From the NCBI GenBank assembly GCA_902623195.1, contig CACNSV010000001.1, forward strand, positions 82,195-146,194: DNA of 64,000 bases, read 5' to 3'. The DNA comes from an uncultured Prochlorococcus sp. Its GTDB lineage: Bacteria > Cyanobacteriota > Cyanobacteriia > PCC-6307 > Cyanobiaceae. Under the pieces are notes generated by a model. It was not told the DNA's origin. It saw only the letters and a list, made by a program, of their open reading frames with translations, and searched no databases. Below, one piece after another: positions 1,505 to 24,093 of the stretch (position 1 is the first letter of the stretch; every line of letters starts with the position of its first letter). The position numbers and the translations under genes were made by a program.

Positions 1505-2784
1505 GGTATAAAAATTGAATGATCTTTATAAAATTTTTGGCTATTTATAAAAAATTTACTAGAACATAATATTTCTGGTTCTTTAAAAATAATTTGTTGA
1601 ATATTTTTAAAAGGCTCTAAATTATTTATCATGCTTCTTTCAAGCATTTCCTTAGCCGCCAACTTTCCTATCCTTTTCGTTGTATGTAGAGCTATTGCGG
1701 CTTGAACTATTGCGACTGGGCCGTATGGTAGCAATGATAATCCATTCGTGAAAGGAGCTAATATTAAACTTATTTTTTTTATTAAATTAAAAGATGAATG
1801 AATACCAATTTGTGTAATTCCTAATAACATATTGTTCAAAGACAATGATTTAAGAAGTGAAATCGCTGATTTACTTTTTACTTTTAATCCATATATTTTG
1901 CTTAATTCATTTATTAAAAGGGTATCAAGAGTAGCACTACCTGCTATATCTAGTAAAATCATAGGATTAAATGCAACACTTGAGGCTTTTAAAGTTGCAA
2001 ATTTTCCAATTGCAGATTGAGCTTTATCCTTCCTTTTTATTAGTCTTTTTTCCTTTATACTATAAGCTAAATTATTAGCTAATTGATATGTATTATAAAT
2101 AATTAAACTATAACCAATTCTATTTAAAGTGATATTTAAGTAATTATAGATTTTATTTTTATCACATAAGTTTTTATCTTTTGTTGAATAAGTAATTATT
2201 GGAATCTTACAATTTATTGGTAATTTTTCTCTTATATTATCTTTTAAAATATCTGTTTCTTTACTTTCCCAAATATCAATTTTATTAAGAATTATTATTA
2301 TATTTTTTCCTTTTTTTATTAGCCATAATAATTTGTCTAGCTCTTGTCTATTTAAGTCTCCTGAAGTTACGAAAAGAATTAAATCAAGAGTTTTAAGATG
2401 TTCAATTTCTAACTTCTTATTATCAGTATTACAAATATCAAATCCTGGAAAGTCAAACAATTTAATAGATTTTATAAAATTATTTTTTAGAGGAAATTCT
2501 TTTGATTGTCTACTTTTTGTAGACCCATTTAAAATATCAGTGTGAAAAAAATTTTCTTGCAGTATTTTATTGGATACAGTTGATTTCCCTACGCCAGTTT
2601 TACCATAAACACCAATTCGGATTATTTTTTCTTTGAGCCTAAATAATTGTTGATTAAAAGTAATAATTTCATTATTTAATACGCATTTCTCATAATTTGT
2701 AAGTTCTGTAGATTTCCACCAGTTTTGGAAAAGTAAATAACTTTCATCCAACTTTATTTGATGTGAATTCATTCCTTCCACCAC
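1501..2784 (-). CDS. GTPase (Era/dynamin-like P-loop NTPase with C-terminal hydrophobic domain)
   Basis: GVYGKTGVGKST P-loop, DFPG G3 motif, NKID G4 motif; ATGA overlap with nadD. Confidence 0.8.
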   Translation of the reverse strand: MVEGMNSHQIKLDESYLLFQNWWKSTELTNYEKCVLNNEIITFNQQLFRLKEKIIRIGVYGKTGVGKSTVSNKILQENFFHTDILNGSTKSRQSKEFPLKNNFIKSIKLFDFPGFDICNTDNKKLEIEHLKTLDLILFVTSGDLNRQELDKLLWLIKKGKNIIIILNKIDIWESKETDILKDNIREKLPINCKIPIITYSTKDKNLCDKNKIYNYLNITLNRIGYSLIIYNTYQLANNLAYSIKEKRLIKRKDKAQSAIGKFATLKASSVAFNPMILLDIAGSATLDTLLINELSKIYGLKVKSKSAISLLKSLSLNNMLLGITQIGIHSSFNLIKKISLILAPFTNGLSLLPYGPVAIVQAAIALHTTKRIGKLAAKEMLERSMINNLEPFKNIQQIIFKEPEILCSSKFFINSQKFYKDHSIFIP

Positions 2785-3746
2785 CCGGCCAAGACAGAAA
2801 GGATCGCTTCAGCTCCAATTAATCCCACAAAACCGCCAAATTCATCTACTACTACTTTCACTCCTTTATTGTCATTGTCAAATGTAGTTAATAGCTTATC
2901 AATTTTTATCATTTCAGGTATGTATTCAACAGGCTCACATAATTCTGTAATTAAAGAAGATTTATTTTTTTTAATAATTTCAGTCAGTAATTTTTCTCTT
3001 TTTGCAATGCCTTGTATCTTGTCAACTTTGTCTCCAAGGACTACCCACCAAGGTGAATTATTTGAAACTATTAACTCAGAGATATTATCAAGAGTTTCGC
3101 AACCGTTGATACTTGGAGCTGAAACTCTTGGGATCATGAGATCTTTAGCTTTTAGATCATTAAGCTGGAAAACTTTTGAAATCATTGCAGCTTCATCAGC
3201 CTCTATTAATCCTTTTTGTGAACCTATCTTTGCCATTTGCCTAATATCCTCCTCGTCAGTTGATATTTCATTTTCCGCTGTTATGACAGGAAATAATTTT
3301 TCAATTAGAGTTAAAAAAGGTCTCATCAGACTATTTAACATTCTTAAAATAGGAACTGATAAAATTGCTACCTGCAAAGAAAATCTTGTTCCAATAGCTT
3401 TAGGCACTACTTCTCCAATTAAAACCACTATGACATAAAAACCTATTGAGAAGATAGTCAGGCCTAAGCGATTATTTATTAATAAAGCTCCATAAAAACC
3501 TAAAATTAGACTACCAATGATATTGAAACCATTATTAGTTATTGTTATGACAGTTAAGGTCCTTCCTAAATGTTTTCTCAATTTTAATAATTGATTAGCT
3601 GATCCTTTTGTTTTTTGTTTTGCTGCTAATTCGAATATTCTCATTGAATTTACAGCTAAAAATGCCGCTTCAGCCCCAGAGCAGCAAGCTGAACCTATTA
3701 AAATTATGAAAATAAGTGTGATTAGAATGAGAACGTTAGGTTCCAT
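2769..3746 (-). CDS. CNNM/DUF21 and CBS domain hemolysin-type transporter
   Basis: N-terminal DUF21-like TM region (SGAEAAFLAVNSMR) followed by CBS-like region (RQMAKIGSQKGLIEADEAAMISKVFQLNDLKAKDLMIPR). Confidence 0.85.
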   Translation of the reverse strand: MEPNVLILITLIFIILIGSACCSGAEAAFLAVNSMRIFELAAKQKTKGSANQLLKLRKHLGRTLTVITITNNGFNIIGSLILGFYGALLINNRLGLTIFSIGFYVIVVLIGEVVPKAIGTRFSLQVAILSVPILRMLNSLMRPFLTLIEKLFPVITAENEISTDEEDIRQMAKIGSQKGLIEADEAAMISKVFQLNDLKAKDLMIPRVSAPSINGCETLDNISELIVSNNSPWWVVLGDKVDKIQGIAKREKLLTEIIKKNKSSLITELCEPVEYIPEMIKIDKLLTTFDNDNKGVKVVVDEFGGFVGLIGAEAILSVLAGWWKE

Positions 3747-6374: not shown

Positions 6375-6413
6375 ATGTTCTTTAATTGAATAGTTTTTTT
6401 AAATTAAGAATAG

Positions 6414-7877
<1,464 letters not shown>

Positions 7878-20830: not shown

Positions 20831-20992
20831 TTAAATAGGATCAAAAATATTTATATTTTCATTACTGATAGTTTTGTTTTCTTTTAAATTCGGAATAAAA
20901 CAATAGCCATCTTTGCAAGTGATATTTTTATTTTCTTGTTTTACATTTTCAGATAAGTTATATTCTGGATCATTTGATGTTTTATTTTGCAT
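20831..20992 (-). CDS. Small cysteine-containing protein, 53 aa
   Basis: Minus-strand MQNKTSNDPEYNLSENVKQENKNITCKDGYCFIPNLKENKTISNENINIFDPI. Confidence 0.4.
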   Translation of the reverse strand: MQNKTSNDPEYNLSENVKQENKNITCKDGYCFIPNLKENKTISNENINIFDPI

Positions 20993-21126
20993 TTTTAGAA
21001 TTTTTAAAGTCCTTACATTAATTATTAACTAAAAGTTATTGGTAAAGCAATAATTAAATAAGAATTTTCACCGATTTACTTTTTTTTGAATTTGGAGCAA
21101 AATTTATATTACATAAGAAGTTCATT

Positions 21127-21279
21127 ATGAAATCTTTAAGAAAATGGCTTTCTAATCTTTTTGAAGGGATGGCTTTTGCTTTCGTTCATCCAATAGATAA
21201 TTCCTTGCCTCCTGAAATTGGTACTCATTCTTATAGAGATAAACCTTATAAGGGTCATAGGAGTTTGTGGTATAGCTAA
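21127..21279 (+). CDS. Small protein, 50 aa
   Basis: MKSLRKWLSNLFEGMAFAFVHPIDNSLPPEIGTHSYRDKPYKGHRSLWYS; composition typical of a real gene. Confidence 0.55.
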   Translation: MKSLRKWLSNLFEGMAFAFVHPIDNSLPPEIGTHSYRDKPYKGHRSLWYS

Positions 21280-21616: not shown

Positions 21617-22030
21617 CTACCCAAAAGGCACTGTGTTATTGAAAGGTGCTACAAAAAGTATTTCCATAAATATTCCTGTCGCGGCAAAAGGTACAACCCA
21701 AATGCCGATAAACCTATGATCAAAGAATCTTAGTTGATCTTTACCTTGGAAAACTAACTTTAATGAAGTAAATAATGTTTCAGGTTGTTTATATGATGGT
21801 GCATTTGTTGAAGGTGTGTAAGGTTTAACAAAAACTGAAGAATTTGCAATTTTATTTAGTTTCTTTATTAAATAGATCGGGATAACCCAAAGGGCAAAAA
21901 ATCTAGCACCAAGCCATTGCCTTGCGTTTGGTAACGCATATTGCTTAATAGATTTATTTTCTTGAAAACCAGATTCAATGATCTTATAAATATTTTCAAC
22001 TTCAGAAGATTTTTTTAAATCGTTAGTCAT
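21617..22030 (-). CDS. Hypothetical protein with two hydrophobic segments, 137 aa
   Basis: Intact ORF with non-low-complexity sequence (NARQWLGARFFALWVIPIYLI; FIGIWVVPFAATGIFMEILFVAPF). Confidence 0.65.
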   Translation of the reverse strand: MTNDLKKSSEVENIYKIIESGFQENKSIKQYALPNARQWLGARFFALWVIPIYLIKKLNKIANSSVFVKPYTPSTNAPSYKQPETLFTSLKLVFQGKDQLRFFDHRFIGIWVVPFAATGIFMEILFVAPFNNTVPFG

Positions 22031-22120
22031 TTTTATCTCTATTTTGTATATTTTAATATTATTATTCTTTTATTTGAAAAAAAAATTATCAATAAATACT
22101 TAATTTAATAATTGGTAATA

Positions 22121-22220
22121 AATAATCCTAACTACTGAAATAACAAAAAAGTAGTTAGGATTATTTGATTGGGCAGGTTATCAAAGACCTCAATCGGTTG
22201 CAGATTTGCCCAAGACCCAC
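22121..22220. ncRNA. Candidate structured RNA unit A (hairpin and pseudoknot)
   Basis: 15-bp perfect inverted repeat AATAATCCTAACTAC (22121-22135)/GTAGTTAGGATTATT (22151-22165); TTGGGCA (22169-22175) is the exact reverse complement of TGCCCAA (22207-22213). Confidence 0.5.
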
Positions 22221-22324
22221 AATTAATTTATAAATAGTTTTTTTTATATCGCAAAGTAAAAAAGTTACAAATAAATAGATAATTTTAATCTATATATTTA
22301 TTAATCTAATTATCTGAATTTTTA

Positions 22325-22430
22325 ACCTCACTCCTTAATACTTATTAAAAAGAATTGGAGTGAGGTATGGGAGGTTCTAAAAAAACCGTAGTTATCAAAG
22401 CTGACGGCGAGTAGATTTCCCAAGATCTAC
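22325..22430. ncRNA. Candidate structured RNA unit B (hairpin and pseudoknot)
   Basis: 10-bp perfect stem ACCTCACTCC (22325-22334)/GGAGTGAGGT (22357-22366); GGGA (22369-22372) can pair TCCC (22418-22421) in the loop of GTAGAT/ATCTAC (22411-22430). Confidence 0.5.
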
Positions 22431-22531
22431 ATTTTATATATATCTCCGCTTTTAATCCTATGACAAGCAAAATTTATACAATTCTAAGTTTTTCTTACCA
22501 TATATGGATGGAAATATAAAAAAAATTTAAA

Positions 22532-22633
22532 AACCTCCTTTATCTATGCCAAGTAAAGGAGGTTAAAAGGGATATTCTCATTAATAACCACGAAATTTGA
22601 CTCTTGTGGCTTGTAGATTTCCCAGTTTCTACA
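22532..22633. ncRNA. Candidate structured RNA unit C (hairpin and pseudoknot)
   Basis: 11-bp perfect stem AACCTCCTTTA (22532-22542)/TAAAGGAGGTT (22554-22564); CCACGA/TTGTGG inner hairpin (22588-22609); GGGA (22569-22572) can pair TCCC (22620-22623) in the loop of TGTAGA/TCTACA (22612-22633). Confidence 0.5.
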
Positions 22634-22741
22634 CATATATATATATTGTGAATAGAAAAATATATCAAGCAAAACTTATACAATAATTTAAAACAGTTTT
22701 TAACCGTTTTAGTAACCTATTTTCAGAAAATAAGTATAAGA

Positions 22742-22921
22742 TTAATTTCTTGAAGCAGCGTATGCGGGTATAAACATTCCACCATCTTGATCATCATTAT
22801 CATCGTCAACTCCATCTCTTAATAAAAGTTCAAATAAAACGAGAATTCCAATTGGATAAAAACACCAAAGAATCGCTATAAAAGGTGAAATAGAGTTAGA
22901 ACTATCTATAAAATTTTCCAT
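22742..22921 (-). CDS. Small membrane protein with acidic tail, 59 aa
   Basis: Minus-strand MENFIDSSNSISPFIAILWCFYPIGILVLFELLLRDGVDDDNDDQDGGMFIPAYAASRN. Confidence 0.55.
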   Translation of the reverse strand: MENFIDSSNSISPFIAILWCFYPIGILVLFELLLRDGVDDDNDDQDGGMFIPAYAASRN

Positions 22922-23961: not shown

Positions 23962-24093
23962 ATGCATGAGCTCTCTACTATATCAATATCGCTAAGTGCT
24001 GCTTCCTTAGGTATTTATCTTATATTCTTTTATTCAAATGATGATGATGATCAAAATGGAGGTCGTTTAATTAAGAGCAGTCAGAAGATTTAA
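23962..24093 (+). CDS. Small single-TM protein, 43 aa
   Basis: MHELSTISISLSAASLGIYLIFFYSNDDDDQNGGRLIKSSQKI. Confidence 0.5.
   Translation: MHELSTISISLSAASLGIYLIFFYSNDDDDQNGGRLIKSSQKI

Follow-up and report, generated by a model that had tools for sequence, protein, structure and literature searches.

A 64,000-nt stretch of DNA from an uncultured Prochlorococcus sp. (the window) contains three repeated, potentially structured units, and the question that they raise is what they encode and how their products might act. No photosynthetic organism is more abundant than Prochlorococcus, which has few protein regulators and is thought to rely on RNA control. An original prediction had described the three units as a structured family with a conserved pseudoknot; this part held, but the strand that it implied and the roles that it gave to the first stem and to a shared downstream block did not. 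The sequences that it quoted were all found in place, i.e., stems at 22120-22166 (17 bp), 22325-22366 (10 bp) and 22532-22564 (11 bp), AGATTT/CCC blocks at 22200, 22411 and 22613, and the repeat CAAGCAAAAYTTATACAAT at 22464-22481 and 22666-22683, a spacing of exactly 202 bp. An ORF check of the window agreed that no protein ORF explains the region.

Strand and layout of the three units

Three lines of evidence, the excess of G-U pairs, the pairing of the A-unit P1 and the order of promoter and terminator signals, place the RNA on the minus strand. The hand-written B/C structure gave 10 G-U versus 3 A-C cells on this strand, and the A-unit alignment gave 52 versus 0, a biased count as that structure was predicted from the minus strand itself. 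P1 of the HNLC A units (GUGGGU/AUCUGC) forms six pairs as minus-strand RNA, as opposed to three A-C mismatches on the plus strand. Moreover, the -10 boxes, the -43 element and the hairpins with their U tracts stand in minus-strand order. A plus-strand RNA, as first implied, was ruled out by the G-U and A-C counts and by the order of promoters and terminators.

The units span 22112-22632 on the minus strand (as do all features given below for them), in the transcription order C, B, A, followed by a gene for a 137-aa protein with two predicted membrane helices (21617..22030, minus strand) directly downstream of unit A. All share a common plan: a -43 element (consensus TTGTATA..TTTT.CTT), an A/T-rich -10 box of the TATAAA type, a GTAGA start, the hairpins P1 and P2, a CCC strand, a terminator hairpin and a T run. 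The P1 loop carries GGG (or GGC, GAG), and the strand complementary to it after P2 carries CCC (GCC, CUC). Counted to the end of the hairpin, the three units in the window are 101, 106 and 101 nt long, from which RNAs of approximately 105-110 nt are predicted. In this layout, the long "first stems", originally read as compensatory versions of one stem, are each the terminator of their own unit, and they are largely conserved in sequence among the orthologs of that unit. Likewise, the block shared by B and C is a promoter element at about -43 rather than a downstream part of the RNA.

Unit C, a predicted ncRNA at 22522..22632, would have its 5' end at about 22632 and its 3' end in the U tract at about 22522-22531. 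Upstream of it lie the element TTGTATAAGTTTTGCTTG (22666..22683), centred near -43, and an A/T-rich -10 region (22634-22646). Its P1 hairpin, GUAGAAACUGGGAAAUCUAC (22613..22632), is supported by covariation; the loop sequence GGGA (22620-22623) forms the predicted pseudoknot with UCCC (22569-22572); and the P2 hairpin CCAC...GUGG (22588..22609) appears in relatives as UCAC...GUGA, a compensatory change. The terminator hairpin, AACCUCCUUUA/UAAAGGAGGUU (22532..22564), is followed by a U-rich tract; its arms correspond to an anti-Shine-Dalgarno/Shine-Dalgarno pair (ACCUCCUUUA/UAAAGGAGGU), and all 7 HNLC-type loci that were aligned have the same loop, CUUGGCAUAGA. Unit C was found only in HNLC-type loci and matched the B/C covariance model (R2), in which its own sequence was included, with 72 bits. 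A 13-codon frame within it (MRISLLTSFTWHR) was considered as a conserved small ORF and rejected; indels or stops shorten it in relatives, leaving five codons in L029, L032 and L033, and the frame is therefore not conserved.

Unit B (22317..22430; predicted 5' end at about 22430) has its upstream element, TTGTATAAATTTTGCTTG (22464..22481), as far from the 5' end as in unit C, and a -10 region at 22430-22443. The P1 hairpin GUAGAUCUUGGGAAAUCUAC (22411..22430) again shows covariation, and the predicted pseudoknot joins UGGGA in its loop (22418-22422) to UCCCA (22368-22372). The P2 hairpin, CCGU...ACGG (22386..22407), carries a conserved loop, AGCUUUGAUAA, and the terminator-like hairpin ACCUCACUCC/GGAGUGAGGU (22325..22366) has a weak U tract in the window. 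Unit A (22112..22220; predicted 5' end at about 22220) is preceded by the upstream element TTTGTAACTTTTTTACTTT (22253..22271) and the -10 box TTTATAAAT (22226-22234); its P1 hairpin (22200..22220) contains three G-U pairs in the window, its predicted pseudoknot has 7 bp, formed by loop UUGGGCA (22207-22213) and UGCCCAA (22169-22175), and its terminator hairpin lies at 22120-22166. This unit matched model R1, which includes its own sequence, with 108 bits.

Among the loci of relatives, the -10 box and the -43 element were found at a fixed distance in every unit separately, and the DNA between varies. The terminators of B and C are conserved although neither unit directly precedes an ORF. Simple terminator and sigma-70 scans flagged none of the unit sites; the terminator scan accepts loops of at most 8 nt and missed the unit hairpins for this reason. 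An NtcA site was rejected since every unit has 7 nt between the GTA...TAC half-sites, compared to the spacing of 8 in the NtcA consensus.

Covariation, paralogy and known RNA families

Each unit was found to fold better than all 200 of its dinucleotide shuffles (z -3.6 to -7.6). In a set of 33 distinct B and C cores, standard pairs made up 91.7% of cells, compared to 39-47% when the partners were slid, and 32 cells showed double changes; none of 500 shuffles scored as high. P1, P2 and the pseudoknot all covary in these cores, and the covariation of the GGG/CCC pairs among relatives shows that the pseudoknot proposed originally is genuine. One series of changes leads from AGGG/CCCU over AGGGA/UCUCU, a G-U step seen in MIT9515-like loci, to AGAG/CUCU (L062, L066, L086 and L099); UGGGA/UCCCA also switches to AGGGC/GCCCU among B/C units, and in A units UUUGGC/GCCAAA alternates with UUGGGCA/UGCCCAA. 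With loops of 2-3 nt and 0-2 nt, P1 and the GGG/CCC helix would be well sized for an H-type pseudoknot. In the minimum-energy fold of single sequences, by contrast, the GGG/CCC helix is nested over another inner helix, which, on inspection, is not conserved in the HL loci.

The units are paralogs, since a model built from A units only detects HL B units (E about 1e-5 to 3e-3) and, only weakly, HNLC B/C units; together with the covariation, this bears out the proposed duplicated family. Covariance models built from the units found homologs in the genus, in which the stems and the GGG/CCC pairing are conserved. We consider it very probable that the units represent a functional ncRNA family. The intergenic region is AT-rich, and the repeats could in principle be a structural by-product, i.e., a duplicated terminator/promoter cassette or a DNA repeat with no RNA function; we regard this as highly improbable, given that three helices, one of them the pseudoknot, show compensatory changes and that the units are conserved in different HL clades.

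In an Rfam search of the whole window, only a tRNA reached the gathering threshold, and a permissive search of 22000-22800 gave only chance-level matches. The units stayed below that threshold for every Rfam family, Yfr13, Cyano-1/2, PhotoRC and glutamine riboswitches among them, in line with the new family suggested by the original prediction. A separate Glutamine-II match is present in L034 at 6402-6464, away from the RNA units. No published description of the cluster was found in a literature search that covered few subscription papers, so an earlier mention is possible. From the sequence comparisons made here, the structured RNA family appears to be real and, as far as tested, previously uncatalogued.

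Among RNAs described in the genus, Yfr1-29 and Yfr101-108 are short intergenic Prochlorococcus ncRNAs with their own promoters, some of them multi-copy and located in genomic islands (PMC2518516, PMC7368042), and the units resemble them in genus, short intergenic location, individual promoters and, for some, copy number. Published Prochlorococcus sRNAs come mainly from MED4, NATL2A and MIT9313 (PMC2518516, PMC7368042, PMC5069720). Identity with a MED4 Yfr RNA, including Yfr11, Yfr13 and Yfr16, was ruled out as MED4 has no copy of the units, and Yfr13 (RF02364) is unrelated to them in both sequence and structure. In the presumed MIT9515 genome, Yfr13 itself (L202:2321-2419, minus strand) shares its strand with the 137-aa gene and is located about 600 bp downstream of it. 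The Yfr103 paralogs of marine Synechococcus and LL Prochlorococcus are also multi-copy and strongly structured, with a conserved imperfect palindrome at -29 to -58 (PMC5069720). They share copy number, structure and a conserved upstream element with the units, but, judged by their description, are set apart by their length of 290-328 nt, compared to about 110 nt here, and by their occurrence in LL/Synechococcus genomes, where the unit model finds nothing.

The nearest architectural analogues are the tandem glnA candidates and the STAXI pseudoknots. The glnA and Downstream-peptide RNAs (RF01739, RF01704) are structured RNAs of marine cyanobacteria, some of them in tandem (PMC2864571), as are the units, which differ in having no Rfam match and a predicted promoter and terminator each. 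The STAXI motif is a pseudoknot that occurs in two or three tandem copies and is linked to DNA-handling genes (PMC2864571); by comparison, the units are about 200 bp apart, with promoters and terminators, and have no Rfam match.

Co-inheritance with the 137-aa gene

The original prediction overlooked the tight link between the RNAs and the adjacent 137-aa gene. The arrangement was seen to be kept in about 15 relatives at first look and then in nearly all of 80 further named loci, which had been gathered via the downstream 137-aa protein. The six nearest loci (L028-L033; 86-96% protein identity), which include HNLC1 and HNLC2, carry the three units C, B and A, and the window can therefore be placed in the HNLC group. 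Other HL loci generally carry two units, B and A; in L045, the terminator of unit A is lost.

Across 121 genomes of the genus, the B/C model matched 57 and the 137-aa gene was found in 59, with both present in 56, only the gene in 3, only the RNA in 1 and neither in 61 (Fisher p = 1.3e-29, treating genomes as independent and ignoring shared ancestry). The four discordant genomes consist of three with gene fragments (G032, G099 and G123) and one (G013) with an RNA near a contig end. Orthologs of the units were found only upstream of the 137-aa gene, and G073, which carries two gene copies about 360 kb apart, has an RNA cluster at each. Among 201 genomes across the family, convincing RNA matches were confined to the same genus, and no RNA homolog was found in LL Prochlorococcus or Synechococcus. 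Phage origin or spread was rejected, as neither protein nor RNA relatives were found in viral contigs and phage records.

Both gene and RNA are present in G131, G022, G064 and G258, which we take to be AS9601, MIT9515, MIT9215 and MIT9312, respectively. MED4 (G015, with Yfr13 exactly at 621601-621701) has neither; model R2 gave no match there, and R1 gave matches at chance level only. In G236, presumably MIT9301, the RNA is absent and the gene is a broken remnant, which is truncated and frameshifted (L195, about 1990-2155, minus strand); the DNA beside it resembles a tRNA fragment, suggesting island recombination. The absence of the RNAs from MED4, the best-studied strain and the one in which most Yfr sRNAs were defined, probably explains why they went unnoticed. 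With no LL homolog found and MED4 lacking the family, an RNA family that most other HL lineages possess would have escaped notice.

The flanks of the module differ between clades. In the HNLC window, it comes after a gene for a small acidic protein of 59 aa (22742-22921, minus strand), with a DDDNDDQDGG motif and a match to phrog_7843 (E 1e-20), which places it in a family that is also present in phages; a second ORF, with DDDDQNGG, is found at 23962-24093 (plus strand). In other HL genomes, the module comes after a gene for a long form of cytochrome b559 beta and a shorter relative, represented in L034 by 2893-3189 (NF002720, E 1e-62) and 3202-3387 (a 61-aa relative of the N-terminal part), both on the plus strand. 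This cytochrome block is present twice in G073, and a psbA-like ORF is situated just past the cytochrome b559 genes in the presumed AS9601 genome. As RNA and gene stay adjacent in spite of the different flanks, a functional link rather than mere neighbourhood is indicated. Downstream of the gene, two small divergent ORFs (50 and 53 aa) form a pair that is duplicated in tandem in HNLC1 (L030, 4759-5207 and 6008-6455) and single in the window (20831-21279).

The 137-aa protein had no family match, including in Pfam and PADLOC, and its low-confidence fold model (mean pLDDT 63) gave no PDB match and no recognised RNA-binding fold. Its LL Prochlorococcus homologs are 39-47% identical and have no such RNA upstream; most of those at L182-L194, also without an upstream RNA cluster, carry an acidic N-terminal extension. 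Co-inheritance, duplication and loss included, and the location of the pseudoknot RNAs, in tandem and upstream of a single gene for a small protein, would fit RNAs that physically partner the neighbouring protein, in the manner of OLE RNA or of a type III toxin-antitoxin inhibitor. We consider such a partnership improbable, given that the LL protein evidently does not need the RNA, that no toxin or defence family was matched and that the model of this two-helix membrane protein suggests no RNA-binding fold. In addition, ToxIN has repeats of about 35-45 nt in one precursor, compared to units of about 110 nt at about 200 bp spacing with their own terminators here, and no match in Pfam or PADLOC pointed to a ToxN-like endoribonuclease gene.

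Possible modes of action

The cluster is, in our judgement, probably a set of three paralogous ncRNA genes that are separately transcribed and act in trans as sRNAs. Each unit would be transcribed from its own TATAAA-type -10 box and the shared element at about -43, and a regulator binding this element would turn on the whole cluster together. Each RNA would begin at about GTAGA with a 6-bp hairpin, whose loop would pair with a strand beyond the second hairpin to form an H-type pseudoknot, and would end in an intrinsic terminator. The stable RNAs could then act as small regulatory RNAs, with the copies providing dosage or slightly different targets, with RNAs and membrane-protein gene inherited as one module. 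Separately transcribed, similarly regulated sRNAs in tandem or multiple copies are represented by NsiR1, Qrr and PrrF; the cluster resembles these, by its predicted features, in its paralogous units, each with a promoter and a terminator and no ORF. Among such sRNAs, we know of none that has a 5' H-type pseudoknot or is strictly linked to a gene for a membrane protein, nor do we know of a sequence relation to the units. PrrF and Qrr are mentioned in PMC2518516.

Alternatively, the units could be cis attenuators, in which a leader pseudoknot, perhaps ligand-bound, chooses between termination and read-through, with the copies sharpening the response as has been proposed for tandem riboswitches. 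Strict linkage to a single downstream gene, the order of pseudoknot and terminator, and a possible antiterminator in several HL B units, formed by AAUGAG and the CUCAUU of the terminator, would be consistent with this, as would the position of the ATG, which follows terminator A after only 32-89 nt across strains. In many strains, this gap is hardly long enough for a separate gene promoter, which favours a leader role for unit A. On the other hand, each unit has its own conserved promoter, which one long leader would not need, no ORF directly follows B or C, no antiterminator is common to A, B and C, and, beyond P1 and the pseudoknot, all units share no invariant core resembling a ligand pocket. 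Since B and C cannot directly lead an ORF and B is well conserved, at least these two are unlikely to be leaders. Overall, we hold attenuation by the units to be rather unlikely. In the trans-acting reading, unit A may in addition be the leader of the 137-aa gene, which, given the short gap, may be transcribed via some read-through of terminator A.

A further, tentative possibility, to which we would assign a minor chance, is a new gain-and-loss module in which two to three pseudoknot RNAs control or bind the adjacent membrane protein and are copied or lost with it as a unit in most HL lineages, perhaps tuning photosynthetic membranes; an extra photosystem II cytochrome b559 gene adjoins the module in many HL strains. 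The combination of a covarying 5' pseudoknot, tandem dosage and co-inheritance with one gene offers a system that can be tested directly in strains amenable to culture, with MED4 and MIT9301 as natural knock-outs for comparison.

With regard to regulation and targets, the -43 element showed no visible regulon, its matches beyond its two exact own copies being at chance level. Predicted pairing of the RNAs with the adjacent 137-aa mRNA was inconsistent and no better than with shuffles. In the genomes searched, exact complements of the C loop were confined to its own locus, and a search for seed complements of the conserved B loop gave no clear excess. In four HL strains (L226, L227, L233 and L237), a 281-aa ORF that resembles prephenate dehydratase contains, 63 nt from its start, a site to which the B loop is complementary over 11 nt, and this shared site may represent a target or simple conservation of the protein.
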